This document shows positions 41,517 to 49,362 of a DNA stretch of 64,000 bases, piece by piece. The position numbers and the translations under genes were made by a program. Numbering within the stretch: the stretch's first letter is position 1; every line of letters begins with the position of its first letter. The notes under the pieces were generated by a model. The model had not been told where the DNA came from. It worked only from the letters and a program-made list of their open reading frames with translations, and did not search any database. The stretch is from Actinomycetota bacterium (GTDB lineage Bacteria; Actinomycetota; Geothermincolia; Geothermincolales; RBG-13-55-18), in assembly GCA_014360645.1 (NCBI GenBank), contig JACIXD010000002.1:124001-188000 (forward strand), given 5' to 3'.

Positions 41517-42503
41517 TCATCCCCCGGGCTCCCGGAAATGTTCGTAGCCCCATCGCCCGGGGCGTACCCGCCTTCCCTCGCGGTCCACCAACTCCACCCC
41601 TTCCCCGGAGATGATGTCGCCGATGACCGTCAGTCCCGCGTCGCCCGCCAGCCCCTCCAGGACCTCCGCGTCGGCGACCACCAGGAGCTCGTAGTCCTCA
41701 CCGGCGCCGAGGGCGGCTTCCAGCGCCTCCTCGCCCATGCGGCCGGCGGCCTGCCACGCCTGCGGTGATATGGGAATATTATCCATCACGATCCTGGCTC
41801 CCACCCCGCTTTCCTCGCAGACATGCCCCAGGTCTCGCAGTAGGCCGTCGCTGATGTCTATGGCCGCCGAGGCCCCCGCCTCCAGGGCCATCCTCCCCTC
41901 GCGCAGCCGGGGACGGGGATAGAGGTGACGAACGGCGCAGAAGTCGTCCGTGTCTCCGCCTTCCATCAGCAGCTTCATCCCCAGGCCGGAATCCCCCAGG
42001 GTACCGGTCACCGCCACCGCCTGTCCGGGCCGAGCCCCGCCGCGGGCGAGGAACCTCCCCTCCGGTAGGGTCCCCACCAGGGACACGGAGATGAAGAGAT
42101 GCCGCGGGGAGGTCACCACGTCCCCACCCACCACCGCGCATCCGAACTCCTCTCCGCAGTCGCGCAGTCCGCGGTACAGCTCCTCCACCGCCTCGGCCTC
42201 CAGGTCCCCCCTCAGCCCCAGCACCACCAGCGCGTAGGCGGGAGTCCCTCCGCCCATGGCCGCGAGGTCGGAGAGGTTGACCGCCAGCGCCTTGTATCCC
42301 AGGGAATGCCAGGGGGTATAGGCGAGGTCGAAATGCACGCCCTCCACCATGGCGTCGGCGGTGTAGGCGAAGCTCCCGCCGCCTCGCGCGGCGAAGACGG
42401 CGGCGTCGTCGCCGACCCCCAGCACCATGCCCTCCAGCGCGGAATCAAGCCCGCGCCGCAGCTCCGCGATGAGCCCGAACTCCCCCAGCTCCTCCAGACG
42501 CAT
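41517..42503 (-). CDS. thiL: Thiamin-monophosphate kinase
   Basis: Phosphorylates TMP to thiamin diphosphate. GVGDDAAVF, TADAMVEGVHFDL, NLSDLAAMGG, VVGGDVV, ISDGLLRDLGH and GAGEDYELL are visible. 328 residues. ATG at 42503 follows GGAGGTGGAGAGA; a GTG nine bases earlier is the alternative. Sits between thiC and thiD. Confidence 0.96.
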   Translation of the reverse strand: MRLEELGEFGLIAELRRGLDSALEGMVLGVGDDAAVFAARGGGSFAYTADAMVEGVHFDLAYTPWHSLGYKALAVNLSDLAAMGGGTPAYALVVLGLRGDLEAEAVEELYRGLRDCGEEFGCAVVGGDVVTSPRHLFISVSLVGTLPEGRFLARGGARPGQAVAVTGTLGDSGLGMKLLMEGGDTDDFCAVRHLYPRPRLREGRMALEAGASAAIDISDGLLRDLGHVCEESGVGARIVMDNIPISPQAWQAAGRMGEEALEAALGAGEDYELLVVADAEVLEGLAGDAGLTVIGDIISGEGVELVDREGRRVRPGRWGYEHFREPGG

Positions 42504-42547
42504 TCTCTCCACCTCCGGCTACCCCTGCTTCGCGCGGAGCGCGATCC

Positions 42548-43861
42548 TCAATCGCAGGCGGGCGCCTCCTCGCGTCCCAGGTACTCGGCTATGAAGCGCA
42601 TGGCGCAGAAATCCCCGCACATGGTGCACGCCCTCTCTCCCTCCACCTGGCGTTCCCCGAACAGGCGGCGCGCCTTCACCGGGTCCAGGGCGAGGCGCAA
42701 CTGCTCCTCCCAGTCCAGCCCTTTCCTGGCGCGGCTCATCTCCAGGTCCCAGGCGCGTGCGCCGGGAAGACCTCGCGCGAGGTCGGCGGCGTGTCCCGCG
42801 ATGCGGGTGACCACCACCCCCTCCCTCACATCATCCGCCGTGGGCAACCCCAGGTGCTCACGCGGCGTGACGTAGCATAGGAAATCGGCGCCCGCGAGGG
42901 CGGCCAGCGCCCCCCCGATGGCCGCCGCGATGTGGTCGTATCCCGCCGCCACGTCGGTGACCAGGGGACCCAGCACATAGAAGGGCGCGCCGCGCGTGAT
43001 GGCCTTGGCCATGCGCACGTTGGCCTCCACCTGGTGGAGTGGGATATGGCCGGGCCCTTCCACCATGCACTGCACGCCGGCCTCGCGGCAGCGGCGCACC
43101 AGCTCGCCCAGCACCACCAGCTCCGCCAGCTGCGCGGCGTCGCTGGCGTCCTCGATGCACCCCGGGCGCAGGCCGTCGCCCAGGGAGAGGGTCACCTCGT
43201 GCCGGCGCGCTATCTCCAGCAGGCGGTCGAAGTCCTCGTAGAGGGGGTTCTCCTCCTGGTTGTGGAGTATCCATCCTGCGAGGAAGGCCCCCCCGCGGCT
43301 CACGATGTCCGCCACGCGCGGGTTGGCCTTGAGGGCCTCCAGCACCCCGGAGGTGACCCCACAGTGCACGGTGATGAAATCCACCCCCGAAGCGCAGTGG
43401 TCCTCCACGGCGCGGAAGATATCCTCGGCCTTCATGGCCACGATGCTCCCCCGCTCCTCCTGGGCTCTCACCGCCGCCTGGTAGATGGGCACCGTGCCCA
43501 CGGGAACAGGAGAGGCGCTCACCACGGCCCTCCTCACCTCGTCGATGGGGCCGCCCGTGGAGAGGTCCATGACCGCATCGGCGCCCGCCTCCACCGCCGC
43601 CCTCAGCTTTTCCAGCTCCTCTCCGATGGTGGCGTAGTCGCTGGAGGTCCCGAGGTTGGCGTTCACCTTGGTGCGGGAGCCGCCGCCCACCACGCATGGC
43701 CTCCGCAGGGGCCGGGCACGGTTCGCCGGGATCACCGCCCTCCCCTCCAGCAGGGCCTGCGCCAGGGCTTCCTTCTCCATGCCCTCCTCCGCCGCCAGCC
43801 TCTCCAGGAGGGAGACCTCCTCGCCCGCCCTCAGACGGTCCAAAAGCGTCTTCTCTAACAC
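42548..43861 (-). CDS. thiC: Phosphomethylpyrimidine synthase
   Basis: Radical-SAM enzyme turning AIR into HMP-P. Visible are VNANLGTSSDY, LSTGG, VHCGVT, GDGLRPGC, EGPGHIP and the C-terminal [4Fe-4S] motif CTMCGDFC. 437 residues, the shorter anaerobe-type N terminus compared with about 630 in E. coli. GTG start at 43861 follows GGAGGTAGAGAC and lies a few bases after the thiE stop. Confidence 0.97.
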   Translation of the reverse strand: MLEKTLLDRLRAGEEVSLLERLAAEEGMEKEALAQALLEGRAVIPANRARPLRRPCVVGGGSRTKVNANLGTSSDYATIGEELEKLRAAVEAGADAVMDLSTGGPIDEVRRAVVSASPVPVGTVPIYQAAVRAQEERGSIVAMKAEDIFRAVEDHCASGVDFITVHCGVTSGVLEALKANPRVADIVSRGGAFLAGWILHNQEENPLYEDFDRLLEIARRHEVTLSLGDGLRPGCIEDASDAAQLAELVVLGELVRRCREAGVQCMVEGPGHIPLHQVEANVRMAKAITRGAPFYVLGPLVTDVAAGYDHIAAAIGGALAALAGADFLCYVTPREHLGLPTADDVREGVVVTRIAGHAADLARGLPGARAWDLEMSRARKGLDWEEQLRLALDPVKARRLFGERQVEGERACTMCGDFCAMRFIAEYLGREEAPACD

Positions 43862-43865
43862 GTCT

Positions 43866-44513
43866 CTACCTCCCTACGCGGTGGGCATCCACGATCCCGC
43901 GCAGGCGCTCCACCGCCATCTCCATGTTATCCGCGGCGCTCACCGCCGAGATCACCGCGATACCGTCGGCGCCGGCCTCCAGGACCCGGGCGGCGTTCGA
44001 GGCATCGATGCCTCCTATAGCCACGAGGGGGAGGTCGACCGCCTCCCTGATCCTCCTCAAGCCCTCTATGCCCACGGGTTCGCCTGCATCCGGCTTGGTG
44101 GGGGTGGCGAAGACCGGGCCCACCCCGATATAATCCGCTCCCGCCGCGCGAGCTTCCAGGGCCTCCTCCACCGTGCCCGCCGATACTCCCAGGACCATGT
44201 CCTCCCCCACCAGGCGCCGCGCTGCCGCGGGTGGCAGGTCATCCTGCCCGACGTGCACCCCGTGGGCCTCGCAGGCAAGCGCCACATCCACGCGGTCGTT
44301 TACCAGGAAAAGGCAGCCCCTCCCGGCGGCCCGCACCAAGGAGGCCACCTCTCCGGCCAGGCGCAGCAGCTCCCTTCCCCCCGCCTCCTTGTCTCGCAGC
44401 TGCACGGCGTCCGCCCCTCCCCGCAGCGCCGCCCGGGCGACATCGAGATGATCGATCCCCCGCCCGGGGTCGCGGCAGGTTATCACGTAGAGCCCCAGCT
44501 TCACCCGCCTCAT
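43866..44513 (-). CDS. thiE: Thiamin-phosphate synthase
   Basis: Joins HMP-PP and thiazole-P to TMP. TIM barrel with VQLRDKEAGGRELL, LFLVNDRVDVALA, GVHVGQDDL, GVSAGTVEEA, DYIGVGPVFAT and AIGGI. 215 residues. ATG at 44513 follows GGAGGCGGATGTAG. Lies between thi4 and thiC. Confidence 0.96.
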   Translation of the reverse strand: MRRVKLGLYVITCRDPGRGIDHLDVARAALRGGADAVQLRDKEAGGRELLRLAGEVASLVRAAGRGCLFLVNDRVDVALACEAHGVHVGQDDLPPAAARRLVGEDMVLGVSAGTVEEALEARAAGADYIGVGPVFATPTKPDAGEPVGIEGLRRIREAVDLPLVAIGGIDASNAARVLEAGADGIAVISAVSAADNMEMAVERLRGIVDAHRVGR

Positions 44514-44614
44514 CTACATCCGCCTCCCATATACTTCCTCTTTCCTCTCCTCTCGCCCCTTTTCCCCGCCCCTCCGCGGCATGCCGAGGGGGCATTCGCT
44601 CGAGTCCGGGCCCA

Positions 44615-45397
44615 TCACCCCAGGAGCTCGAGGGCGAGGCGGGCCGCCTCCCGCCCGGAGAGCAACATGCCTCCGAAGACCGCCCCCATGCGGTGGGACC
44701 CATACACCGCGTTGGCGGTCATGCCCGCCACGATGAGCCCGGGGTGCACCTGGCGCGTGTTGTGCACCAGGGCGGCCTCGCCCTTTTCCGCCCACATGGA
44801 CCTCTCCCCCGCCACCGTTCCGTCCGTCGTGAGCAGGCGGATCCCCGGCGCCTTCCTCGCCAGGGTGCGGCAGACCTCTGCATCGTGCCCGGTGGCGTCG
44901 ATGACCAGGCGCGATCTCAGGGCGAGGGGATCGACGTGCAGCCCCGCCCTCTCCACCGCCATCCAGTTGAGCACCACGCCGCAAACGCGGTCGTCCTCCC
45001 TCAACACCAGGTCTTCCACGCCCATGCCTATCCAGATGCGTGCTCCGGCATCGATGGCGGCCGCCGCGCTGCGGGAGACCGCCTCCACCGCGTCCACCAC
45101 GTAAAGGCCGTCCCCGCAGGGCTTGAGGGCCACCCCCGTCTCCTCTATGATCCCACGCGCCTCCTCCTGGACCACGATGCGGGGGAAGAGCATCCCTCCG
45201 CCCCACATGCCGCCCCCCACGTAGAGGTTGCGCTCGAATACCGCCACCCGCGCTCCTCCCCGCGCCAGGTAGCGCGCGGCGGTGAGGCCGCTGGGGCCCG
45301 CTCCCGCCACCGCCACGTCCAGCTCCAGGTCCTCCAGAAAATCGGCGGTAAAAGAACGTACTATGGCCGCCGTGATGGCGGTCTCCTCCAGGGCCAT
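44615..45397 (-). CDS. thi4: Thiazole synthase Thi4, His-type (sulfide-dependent)
   Basis: Makes the thiamin thiazole from NAD, glycine and sulfide, with iron. FAD/NAD site VAGAGPSGLTAA; GGGMWGGGMLFP; VVLNWMAVERAGLHVDPL; GMTANAVYGSHRMG. The position of yeast Thi4 Cys205, the sulfur donor, carries His (LHVDPL, about residue 154), as in the catalytic archaeal enzymes. 260 residues from ATG at 45397 with AAAGGAGGGGAG upstream. First gene of the thiamin operon behind the TPP riboswitch. No thiG, thiS or thiH is in the window. Confidence 0.92.
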   Translation of the reverse strand: MALEETAITAAIVRSFTADFLEDLELDVAVAGAGPSGLTAARYLARGGARVAVFERNLYVGGGMWGGGMLFPRIVVQEEARGIIEETGVALKPCGDGLYVVDAVEAVSRSAAAAIDAGARIWIGMGVEDLVLREDDRVCGVVLNWMAVERAGLHVDPLALRSRLVIDATGHDAEVCRTLARKAPGIRLLTTDGTVAGERSMWAEKGEAALVHNTRQVHPGLIVAGMTANAVYGSHRMGAVFGGMLLSGREAARLALELLG

Positions 45398-45505
45398 CTC
45401 CCCTCCTTTTCTCCTCGCCTCTCGCTTTCTATCCGCCATGCGGCGCTCCAGGCGCGCCGCCGCCCGCTCCTTCCGCCCTCGCGCCGCGCCCCTCCACCCG
45501 GCAGC

Positions 45506-45883: not shown

Positions 45884-46597
45884 ATGGCCGATAAAGAGGA
45901 ACGCAAGAAGGTGAGCAAGCCGCGCGGGGACGAGCCCGCCGGCTCGAGCGCGAAAAGCAAGGGCGGTCCTTCCCCGGACGCCGGTAAGACGGCGGCGCGA
46001 AAACCGGCTTCCGGGAAGCGCGCGCGCGGCGGCGCCAAGGACGGGACGCCGGACGGGGGAGCGGAGGCCGCGGGACGTAAGAGAAAGAGCGGGCCGGCGG
46101 CGCCGGGTCAAGAGGAGGCCGCGGCCGGGGAGGCCGCCGGGAAGGCGGTGGACGCCGAAAAGGCCCGCGAGGCGGGAGAGGCGGAGGCCGTCGGGAAAGA
46201 TGAGGGCGACAGGATGAGAGAGGCCGGACGAGAGGAGGCCGCAGCCGGGGAGGCCGACGGGAAGGCGGTGGACGCCGAAAAGGCCCGCGAGGCGGGAGAG
46301 GAGATGAGCGAGGAGGAGTTCCGCCGCCTGGTGGAGGAGAGCCTGGAGAAGGTCACCGTGGCGGAGGTGGCCTTTACCATGATGAACCAGCTCGCCAGCA
46401 TGGGCTATCTCAAGATGGGCCTGCCGGAGAGCGTGAACCTGAAATACCGCGACTTCGAACAGGCGGCGCTGGCCATCGACCTGCTGGAGGCCATGATCAA
46501 GGGGGCCGAGGGCAGGATGTCCGAGGAACTCCTGCGGCCTTTCCGGGGAACCCTGGCCAACCTGCAGATGAACTTCGTGCAGCTGCGCAGGCGGTGA
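45884..46597 (+). CDS. DUF1844 protein with long repeated charged N terminus
   Basis: 237 residues. About 1-145 is disordered, Lys/Ala/Glu/Gly-rich, with a 23-residue segment beginning EEAAAGEA and running through KAVDAEKAREAGE that occurs twice 40 residues apart. The C terminus is DUF1844: FTMMNQLASMGYLKMGLPE ... AIDLLEAMIKG ... NLQMNFVQL. Its function is unknown; DUF1844 proteins are common in Actinobacteria near infC/rpmI/rplT. ATG at 45884 follows AAAGGAGGG. Confidence 0.85.
   Translation: MADKEERKKVSKPRGDEPAGSSAKSKGGPSPDAGKTAARKPASGKRARGGAKDGTPDGGAEAAGRKRKSGPAAPGQEEAAAGEAAGKAVDAEKAREAGEAEAVGKDEGDRMREAGREEAAAGEADGKAVDAEKAREAGEEMSEEEFRRLVEESLEKVTVAEVAFTMMNQLASMGYLKMGLPESVNLKYRDFEQAALAIDLLEAMIKGAEGRMSEELLRPFRGTLANLQMNFVQLRRR
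46112..46300. repeat. Internal 69-bp repeat, 120-bp period
   Basis: GAGGAGGCCGC begins a 69-base segment at 46112-46180 that recurs at 46232-46300 with two mismatches. It encodes the repeated acidic segment of the DUF1844 protein's N terminus. Confidence 0.85.
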
Positions 46598-46637
46598 GTC
46601 GCGTGGGCGTTCCCGCGCCTCACCGCCTCATCCACGA

Positions 46638-46856
46638 TCAGGATACGGCGTCGACGGCTGCGACGCTGATGTACACGGACTCGCGCTCGTGGCGCTCTCC
46701 GGCCAGGGTGCAGCTGACGTCCCTCAGAACCAGGAACCCGCCCTCGCTGACCTCCTCCAGGTCGCCCCGGAAATAATGCCCTCCCGACGTCCAGACCATG
46801 AGTTCCCGTCCCGCCTTGTCGGCCAAGGCGCGCCGCAGCGCTTCCAATTCGGCCAT
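46638..46856 (-). CDS. Small Sm-like (LSm-fold) protein
   Basis: 72 residues. Residues 16-48 fit the Sm1 motif (GRELMVWTSGGHYFRGDL, then FLVLRDV), and residues 61-71 (VYISVAAVDAV) fit a short Sm2. This is an archaeal/eukaryotic LSm-like pattern rather than Hfq, so RNA binding and ring formation are predictions. ATG at 46856 follows GGAGTGTGAGC. It lies two bases after the TPR gene stop, so the two are coupled. Confidence 0.65.
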   Translation of the reverse strand: MAELEALRRALADKAGRELMVWTSGGHYFRGDLEEVSEGGFLVLRDVSCTLAGERHERESVYISVAAVDAVS

Positions 46857-46858
46857 GC

Positions 46859-47425
46859 TCACACTCCTTCCCTCAGTCTCTGCAGGCGCCGGCGGGCCCG
46901 CGCGTCGTGGGGCTTGTAGAAGAGGTAGTCCTCCAGGTCCTGGATGGCCTCCTCCACGCCTCCCCTCTCCATCCAGGCCAGCGCTCGCTTGTAATAGGCC
47001 TGGGCGTAATCCGGATACAGCTCCAGGGCGAGGGAGTAGTCCTTCACCGCGGCCTCGTGTTCTCCCGCCGACGCCAGGATATCACCCCGTGCGCAGTAGG
47101 CCGCCGCGAAGTCGGGTTTCAGTTTGATGGCCCTGCTGAGCGCCTCTAGGGCCTCGTGGTGACGCCCCGCCTTCCCCAGGGCTATGCCCAGGTTGTACTG
47201 GGCCACCACGAACTCCGGGTACAGCTCCACCGCGCGCCGGTACATGGGGATGGACTGCTCCCATTCTCCCCTGGAATCGTGGAGTTGCGCCCGGGAGTTC
47301 AGTTCCGTGGCCTCCTTGATGGCCTCTATCCGTCCCCCGGAAAGGGCGAAACCGCACACGGGACAATTGTCCACTCCCAGAGGGATCTCCTTGGTGCAGT
47401 TGAAGCAGCGCGTGGTCTCGGCCAC
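46859..47425 (-). CDS. Zinc-ribbon TPR protein
   Basis: 188 residues. An N-terminal zinc ribbon (CFNCTKEIPLGVDNCPVC) is followed by about four TPR repeats (for example SIPMYRRAVELYPEFVVAQY, AIKLKPDFAAAYC, ALELYPDYAQAYYKRA). GTG at 47425 has AAAGGA upstream; starts further upstream would fall inside the tRNA gene and are rejected. Only about 17 bp separate it from the tRNA 3' end, suggesting one transcript. Confidence 0.85.
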   Translation of the reverse strand: MAETTRCFNCTKEIPLGVDNCPVCGFALSGGRIEAIKEATELNSRAQLHDSRGEWEQSIPMYRRAVELYPEFVVAQYNLGIALGKAGRHHEALEALSRAIKLKPDFAAAYCARGDILASAGEHEAAVKDYSLALELYPDYAQAYYKRALAWMERGGVEEAIQDLEDYLFYKPHDARARRRLQRLREGV

Positions 47426-47442
47426 CCTCGATCCTTTAAAAA

Positions 47443-47517
47443 TGGCGCCCTTGGGGAGATTCGAACTCCCGCACGTGGCTCCGGAGGCCACTGCTCTATC
47501 CACTGAGCTACAAGGGC
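47443..47517 (-). tRNA. tRNA-Arg(CCG)
   Basis: 75-nt cloverleaf with acceptor GCCCTTG/CAAGGGC, D stem GCTC/GAGC, anticodon stem GTGGC/GCCAC with loop CTCCGGA (anticodon CCG, reads CGG), T arm GGGAG-TTCGAAT-CTCCC, discriminator G and encoded CCA. Transcribed toward the TPR gene. Confidence 0.97.
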
Positions 47518-47541
47518 ACCGTTAACCCTGATTTCCCCTCC

Positions 47542-47570
47542 ATATTATCAAGGCAAGAGGGGCTTTTCAA
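47542..47570 (-). promoter_or_regulatory. Promoter of tRNA-Arg and downstream TPR/Sm-like genes
   Basis: Minus-strand TTGAAA (47565-47570), a 17-bp spacer and TAATAT (47542-47547), ending 24 bp before the tRNA 5' end. Confidence 0.7.
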
Positions 47571-47866: not shown

Positions 47867-48865
47867 TCAAGATGAGGTGAAGCGCCAGACCTCTCCCCCG
47901 CGGTCGCACCGCACCAGCCCCTCTTTCTCCAGGATGAGGAGGTGGCCCAGCGCCTCCTTAAGGGCCAGGAAGTGGTCCACCTGGGGGGGCTTCCCTCTCA
48001 CCTGCGGGAAGAGGCGCAGCGCCGTCTCCCACACCGTCACGCAACCCCGCTTAACCGCCTCAAGCGTCTTCTCCAGGCGCCGCTGGTGGTGCAGCAGGTT
48101 CATGTCTATCCTGCGCGACGCCTTGTCGATGGGACCGCCGTGCCCGGGGTAGGCCACCGCGATGTCGTAGCCGCGCAGCAGCTCCAGGGACTCGAGGAAC
48201 TGCGGCAGTCCGGTCATCTCCCCCCGCCACGGCGGACAGTACAGCTCGGGGTTGGGGGTGATGGAGCGCATGAGGTGGTCGCCCGAGAAGAGCAGCCCCT
48301 CGGAGCGCTCGTAATAGCACAGGTGTCCGGCGGTGTGTCCGGGGGTATGCACCGCCTCCAGCTCGCGGTCGCCGGCCTTCACCCGCTCTCCCCCCCGCAG
48401 GGGGACGTCCACCGGGCAGGGCTGCGAGAGGCCGGTCCAGACATGCGCCAGGGAGAAGATGGCCTCCGCCACCTCGCGCGGGAAGCCCATGCGCTCGGAA
48501 AGGGAGGCGTAGCAGCGGTATTCCTCCTCCAGGCGGGCTCCCGCGCGCTCGATGCGCGGTCTCTCGAAGCGGTGCGCCGCCACGGCGCCGCCCGTGCGGG
48601 CGCGCAGGCGTGCCGCCATGCCGAAGTGGTCGATGTGGGAGTGGGTGAGGTAGATGAACTCCAGCTCCGCCACTCCCGCACGCCGCAACGCCTCCGCCAC
48701 CACCTCCTCGAGTAGGGGGTGAAAGGGGCCCGCGTCTATGAGCGCGGGGTGTTCTCCCGTGAAAAGGTAGAGGTTGAAGTTCTTCAGCTCGTGCTGGATG
48801 GGTACCTCGATGCGGAAGACGTCCTCGCTCAGCCGCCGCAGGATGTCGCCGCCGTTGCCGTTCAT
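47867..48865 (-). CDS. Metallo-beta-lactamase-fold hydrolase
   Basis: 332 residues. MBL motifs: THSHIDHFGMAAR (HxHxDH), HTPGHTAGH, FSGDHLM, AYPGHGG. The C terminus is a winged-helix-like segment (ALGHLLILEKEGLVRC), as in LACTB2-like thioester or nucleic-acid hydrolases. Substrate unknown. ATG at 48865 overlaps the HNH gene stop by four bases (ATGA), so the two are coupled. Confidence 0.92.
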   Translation of the reverse strand: MNGNGGDILRRLSEDVFRIEVPIQHELKNFNLYLFTGEHPALIDAGPFHPLLEEVVAEALRRAGVAELEFIYLTHSHIDHFGMAARLRARTGGAVAAHRFERPRIERAGARLEEEYRCYASLSERMGFPREVAEAIFSLAHVWTGLSQPCPVDVPLRGGERVKAGDRELEAVHTPGHTAGHLCYYERSEGLLFSGDHLMRSITPNPELYCPPWRGEMTGLPQFLESLELLRGYDIAVAYPGHGGPIDKASRRIDMNLLHHQRRLEKTLEAVKRGCVTVWETALRLFPQVRGKPPQVDHFLALKEALGHLLILEKEGLVRCDRGGEVWRFTSS

Positions 48866-49362
48866 CCCACCAGGGCCGTCTCCAGGTAGGGCTCCCAGGT
48901 GGGATGGATGTCCCCCGCCTGGCTGAAGATCCAGATGTGGTCGTGGGGCTCCACCGGCTTTCGCGCCAGCTTCAGGCCGGCCTCGGAGGGGAGGCGGTTC
49001 ATCTTGCGCGTGTTGCAGCGCCTGCAGGCGGCCACCACGTTCTCCCATACGTGCTTTCCTCCGCGGCTGCGCGGGATCACGTGGTCGATGCTCTCGGCGC
49101 GGGCGCCGCAGTACTGGCAGGTATATCCATCCCTGATGAAGACGGCGCGCCGGCTCAGGGCGACGGAACGGTAGGGGGCATTTACATAATATACCAGGCG
49201 TATCACCGTGGGATAGGGCATGGACATGCGCTCGGCATGCAGGCGGGCGTCCAGCTCCTCGATGATCTCGGCCTTGTTCTTGAGCACCAGCACCACGGCC
49301 CTCTTCACGTTCACGAGGTTCAACGGCTGATATGACGCATTGAGGACCAGTACCCTGCGCAT
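48862..49362 (-). CDS. HNH endonuclease
   Basis: 166 residues. VLNASYQPLNLVNVKRAV begins this standalone HNH type, then CQYCGARAESIDHVIPRSRGG... CRRCNTRKMNR, with zinc Cys pairs and the His-Asn-His core (IDHVIPRSRGGKHVWENVV). This family is widespread as a stand-alone protein with no known fixed partner. ATG at 49362 follows AGGGAGACG. Confidence 0.94.
   Translation of the reverse strand: MRRVLVLNASYQPLNLVNVKRAVVLVLKNKAEIIEELDARLHAERMSMPYPTVIRLVYYVNAPYRSVALSRRAVFIRDGYTCQYCGARAESIDHVIPRSRGGKHVWENVVAACRRCNTRKMNRLPSEAGLKLARKPVEPHDHIWIFSQAGDIHPTWEPYLETALVG

Follow-up and report, generated by a model that had tools for sequence, protein, structure and literature searches.

Organization of the locus

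We consider a tRNA gene and the two protein genes directly behind it on the minus strand of the window, by which is meant the whole 64,000-nucleotide stretch of DNA that was analysed. Read along the minus strand, a promoter is followed by tRNA-Arg(CCG), a zinc-ribbon/TPR gene and the gene of a 72-residue protein with a predicted LSm fold, beyond which lies the convergent DUF1844 gene. The features are as follows.

45884–46597, plus strand: DUF1844 protein gene, convergent neighbour and member of the conserved neighbourhood
46590–46637, minus strand: strong GC-rich hairpin (−31.9 kcal/mol, z −4.65) where the LSm and DUF1844 genes converge, without a U tract; possible transcript end
46638–46856, minus strand: 72-residue protein with predicted LSm fold, ATG at 46856, stop included
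46859–47425, minus strand: 188-residue zinc-ribbon/TPR protein, GTG start at 47425, coding to 46862, stop included in the interval
47426–47442, minus strand: 17-nt trailer/leader, with a U5 tract abutting the CCA and then an AAAGG-type ribosome-binding site
47443–47517, minus strand: tRNA-Arg(CCG), 75 nt, CCA encoded (Rfam tRNA, 68.2 bits)
47542–47570, minus strand: sigma-70-type promoter with TG extension, TTGAAA-N17-TAATAT, lying about 24 nt 5' of the tRNA
47867–48865, minus strand: metallo-beta-lactamase-superfamily gene between the HNH gene and the tRNA, in family f1 only
48865–49362, minus strand: HNH endonuclease-family gene, putative ancestral neighbour 5' of the tRNA in the class

It is noted that the gaps given by the earlier note, 17 nt between the tRNA and the TPR gene and 2 nt between the TPR and LSm genes, are exact, and that the promoter which it placed before the tRNA is indeed present (47570–47542, with the tRNA at 47517–47443). 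Both reading frames are real genes, with orthologues 60–89% identical in the family and with dN/dS values of about 0.17–0.37 for the LSm gene (against five relatives) and 0.08–0.14 for the TPR gene, showing purifying selection. Beyond the convergent DUF1844 gene, at 41517–45439, lie thiamine-related genes that are Thi4-, ThiE-, ThiC- and ThiL-like. Judged by its named relatives, the window belongs in or beside Ca. Solincola, within the class Ca. Geothermincolia of the Actinomycetota.

Promoter, tRNA trailer and probable co-transcription

Between 46300 and 47900 the site at 47570–47542 is the single promoter-like site, while shuffled sequence gives 0.1. The promoter is kept as TTGAAA-N17-TA(A/G)(T/G)AT, 24–27 nt 5' of the tRNA, in 12 of the 14 genomes of the window's family, the remaining two having related hexamers with a spacing of 18 nt. 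A search of the window for a terminator hairpin behind the tRNA found none. In most genomes of the window's order the next gene begins about 17–20 nt behind the tRNA, and in all 17 order members a U-rich tract lies immediately 3' of the CCA, a tract that is not present in the other families of the class, including those keeping the tRNA and the LSm gene together. The locus has the layout of a tRNA-mRNA operon, with one promoter 5' of the tRNA, no terminator found behind it and a gene start directly after it. In the known mixed operons of E. coli the tRNA genes stand first (PMC1183518).

tRNA-Arg(CCG) is single copy in its own genome. Among the 47 tRNA genes of that genome, only this one and tRNA-Trp have a clearly real same-strand gene at most 30 nt behind, and only five have at least 5 T within the first 8 bases behind the tRNA. 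tRNA-Trp (G000:C2, locus L132) lies 28 nt before secE, which is followed by nusG, and a U-rich tract comes directly after its CCA; the genome has here a second tRNA-mRNA operon with the same layout. Because of the promoter, the U-tract, the terminator search and the comparable tRNA-Trp arrangement, it is likely, as far as sequence can tell, that tRNA, TPR and LSm genes are transcribed as one unit, an operon of an ordinary type.

Fold of the 72-residue protein

The Sm-like fold of the 72-residue protein was called in the earlier note from motifs only, and the structure search now bears it out at the level of models. The structure predicted by AlphaFold with five orthologues (pLDDT 90.7, pTM 0.75) consists of an N-terminal helix and five strands forming a bent sheet, and in the Foldseek comparison with the PDB the best 50 matches are all entries for Sm, LSm or SmAP proteins or for complexes holding them, the top one coming from the human Sm core (E 1.2e-5, TM 0.80). 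That the protein adopts the Sm fold, on which the RNA-handling rings of archaea and eukaryotes are built, is thus a strong prediction.

The sequence signal for Sm is weak in the window protein and clear for the family. Against Pfam LSM (PF01423) the window protein scores 12.1 bits, under the cut-off of 23.4 bits, whereas the family member of genome G008 scores 24.7 bits, above it; matches with E up to 1 are obtained for 12 of 20 family members, the best having E 8.6e-6. The G008 member also matches SmAP1 (1i8f) with E 1.8e-5. The family profile finds as its best PDB match 1ycy, with E 1.3e-4 over a partial alignment, while the window protein alone gives E 0.15 against the same entry. Matches to HisF in the PDB profile search, covering only about 25 residues, were set aside as spurious. 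With these structure and profile searches, Sm motifs read by chance are ruled out.

Class-wide, E18, R30, G31 and E57 are invariant (28/28) and E54 is found in 27, and the strongest conservation in the family falls on VSCTLAGERxERE and HYFRG, outside the loops of the uridine pocket. In SmAPs that pocket is formed by DxHxN in loop L3 and RG in loop L5. When the G008 member is aligned to 1i8f, DQHVN is replaced by DEEGF and VVRG by VVAL, and the window protein has SEGGF and YISVAA at these positions, so that in neither protein are the pocket residues of archaeal SmAPs retained. With DxHxN and RG replaced, RNA binding by the LSm protein may have been lost; judged from these missing residues, any RNA contacts that it has must differ from those of archaeal SmAPs.

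Distribution and neighbourhood in the class

The family profile finds exactly one LSm copy in 28 of the 31 genomes of Ca. Geothermincolia, and with the same profile no credible match is found in 365 other Actinomycetota genomes; two matches outside the class (G154 and G255), weak, partial and inside frames of 335–385 residues, were set aside. The scan of the whole collection used one query protein and reaches close relatives only. In the 31 genomes of the class the Hfq model PF17209 finds no match, the 72-residue gene included, although its positive control worked; an Hfq in disguise is ruled out, since the protein has no match to the Hfq model. As judged among the Actinomycetota genomes compared, the family would be a class-specific, non-Hfq bacterial LSm. 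Its inheritance looks vertical, because of the fixed position and the single copy. A mobile or phage origin was rejected, as tblastn of the window protein against phage and plasmid records gave no match and only weak PHROG matches were seen. Searches of the literature on the RNA biology of Geothermincolia and on non-Hfq LSm families in bacteria gave nothing specific.

Across 24 loci that could be viewed widely, the order is HNH, the metallo-beta-lactamase gene (f1), tRNA-Arg(CCG), the TPR gene (the window's order only), LSm, a small lipoprotein gene (other families) and the convergent DUF1844 gene, with Thi4 often next beyond. As read from these loci, the ancestral neighbourhood is HNH, tRNA-Arg(CCG), LSm and convergent DUF1844. 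The tRNA stands directly upstream, on the same strand, of the LSm gene or of the TPR-LSm pair in 26 of the 28 genomes, a count that includes G024, where the tRNA falls in an assembly gap with its 3' end still readable and which was for that reason rejected as a genome without the tRNA, and that leaves G019, where a 2.5-kb opposite-strand gene lies between tRNA and LSm, and G018, where the contig ends at the locus and adjacency cannot be judged. In some families the gap between tRNA and LSm is about 250–390 nt; in the families other than the window's, the tRNA lies 19–114 nt behind the HNH gene.

Two further genes of the neighbourhood are noted. A small HNH endonuclease-family gene precedes tRNA-Arg(CCG) across the class (loci L083–L100). 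In other families (L084, L085, L091, L092, L093) the LSm gene is followed on the same strand by a short gene predicted to encode a lipoprotein, with a Cys after a hydrophobic leader; the stretch tested has no Pfam match.

In the zinc-ribbon TPR protein a CxxC...CPxC zinc ribbon at the N-terminus is joined to about 4.5 TPR repeats (AlphaFold pLDDT 93.6). Zinc-ribbon Pfam models score under their cut-off, and the four cysteines are invariant in the aligned TPR orthologues; the TPR domain resembles generic consensus TPRs, which bind proteins. Of the TPR-Sm pair that the earlier note proposed to survey, the order-level part stands: the tRNA-TPR-LSm arrangement is found in 16 of the 16 order members having LSm, and it leaves the TPR gene little space for a promoter of its own. 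With this and the Sm-fold hits of the structure search, neither of the two refutations named in the earlier note came about. Class-wide, however, the TPR gene is not a constant partner, and TPR-Sm as the conserved pair was rejected on that account; the gene is an insertion found in the window's order alone. Since tRNA and LSm are adjacent across the class and TPR is present in one order only, the two probably became neighbours before the TPR gene was inserted. In G015 (L095) tRNA-Arg(CCG) and the TPR gene are kept with no LSm between TPR and DUF1844, the LSm gene being missing through loss or an assembly defect; this arrangement suggests that the TPR protein does not strictly need the LSm protein.

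Discussion

In our reading, the locus is a housekeeping tRNA-mRNA operon making a non-Hfq bacterial LSm protein, which is the best explanation of the data and which we hold to be somewhat more probable than all others together. The strong promoter would transcribe tRNA-Arg(CCG) and run on into the TPR and LSm genes. Maturation of the tRNA 3' end would then cut at or near the CCA/U-tract, freeing an mRNA whose leader is about 17 nt long. Translation of TPR and LSm, which are spaced by 2 nt, would be coupled. The Sm-fold protein would probably form a ring like its relatives and, in these bacteria without Hfq, chaperone RNA or scaffold an RNP, and in the window's order the TPR protein, from its operon position, would probably be an adaptor of the LSm protein or of its RNP.

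The chief competitor, which we rate as distinctly less probable, is that the barrel is a module for protein-protein contact, with the TPR protein for instance, and has no RNA function, the link to the tRNA being no more than a borrowed housekeeping promoter. Sm folds are also known in proteins without known RNA action. Such a module would be consistent with the absent uridine-pocket residues, with conservation peaking outside the pocket loops, with the protein-binding type of the TPR domain, and with HNH and DUF1844 being about as constant beside LSm as the tRNA is, which makes adjacency a weaker guide to function, as the conserved synteny may simply be inertia. It accords poorly, however, with near-universal retention as a single copy in a class with no detected Hfq, and with the fact that SmAPs, among them several RNA binders, are the nearest solved relatives in sequence as well as in fold. 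That inertia might be the whole matter, the genes being neighbours solely by inherited synteny and having separate transcripts, seems to us unlikely: the HNH-tRNA-LSm-DUF1844-Thi4 block is conserved as a whole and the tRNA-LSm gap is wide in some families, but in the window's order the gap is mostly short, a single promoter is conserved and no terminator was found.

We regard as equally unlikely a tighter coupling, in which the LSm protein binds the U-tract of its own tRNA-Arg trailer, or tRNA precursors, and thereby autoregulates its expression. Hfq and SmAPs bind U-rich RNA (PMC5379935), and the tract after the CCA is constant in the order and of a kind rare among the genome's own tRNAs. Against this, other families with tRNA and LSm have no U-tract, tRNA-Trp before secE has the same tract with no LSm, and the residues of the uridine pocket are missing. 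The suggestion of the earlier note that coupling to a tRNA points to an RNA-linked role therefore holds in part: the adjacency is class-wide, but it is a weak sign of function, given that HNH and DUF1844 are about as firmly fixed there, that tRNA-mRNA operons are ordinary and that the uridine residues are absent. Because gene order is conserved generally and those residues are absent, the case for a functional link between LSm and tRNA appears weaker than that for co-transcription.

Returning to the operon making an LSm protein, we consider it well placed as a candidate RNA-handling protein of bacteria, one so far unstudied, because the predicted Sm fold is conserved, Hfq is undetected and the gene lies behind a housekeeping tRNA in nearly all of the genomes searched. 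A bolder form, to which we give only a small probability, is that the Hfq-less Geothermincolia use a second, non-Hfq lineage of bacterial LSm as their general RNA chaperone, one whose RNA-binding surface is unlike those of Hfq and SmAP and whose production is tied to tRNA-Arg(CCG) transcription and 3' maturation. What makes the locus interesting is a conserved LSm family, distinct from Hfq, in bacteria where no Hfq is detected; the TPR-Sm pair is the form that a wider tRNA-Arg/LSm neighbourhood takes in one order. Such bacteria seem to be without an RNA chaperone, and the family would supply a candidate for one. The loci also give, for an uncultured lineage, a clear set of tRNA-mRNA operons that can be tested.

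Comparison with known systems

Among small Sm-like proteins of phages, that of Gordonia phage Reyja, annotated as an RNA binding protein, resembles the window protein in fold (Foldseek TM 0.76, E 9.5e-5), whereas in sequence the window protein has no counterpart among the phage and plasmid records. Hfq likewise represents the Sm superfamily in bacteria, but the 72-residue protein is not an Hfq. The conserved hypothetical protein 1ycy of Pyrococcus furiosus, an archaeal entry, has 71 residues and is the best PDB match of the family profile, over part of its length. Archaeal SmAP/Lsm, represented by SmAP1 of Pyrobaculum aerophilum (1i8f), the nearest solved sequence relative of the G008 member, shares the predicted Sm fold and a similar length; by contrast, the host here is bacterial, DxHxN and RG are replaced, and the neighbours are tRNA-Arg, HNH and DUF1844, while many archaeal lsm genes adjoin L37e (PMC10221803). 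That published survey divides the superfamily by domain, with Sm in eukaryotes, Lsm in archaea and Hfq as the sole bacterial form; an LSm family inherited vertically as a single copy, in a bacterial class where Hfq is undetected, would breach this division. In layout, there is a close likeness within the same genome, where the tRNA-Trp-secE-nusG operon likewise has its tRNA first, with a gene closely behind and a U-tract after the CCA, but carries SecE and NusG in place of LSm.
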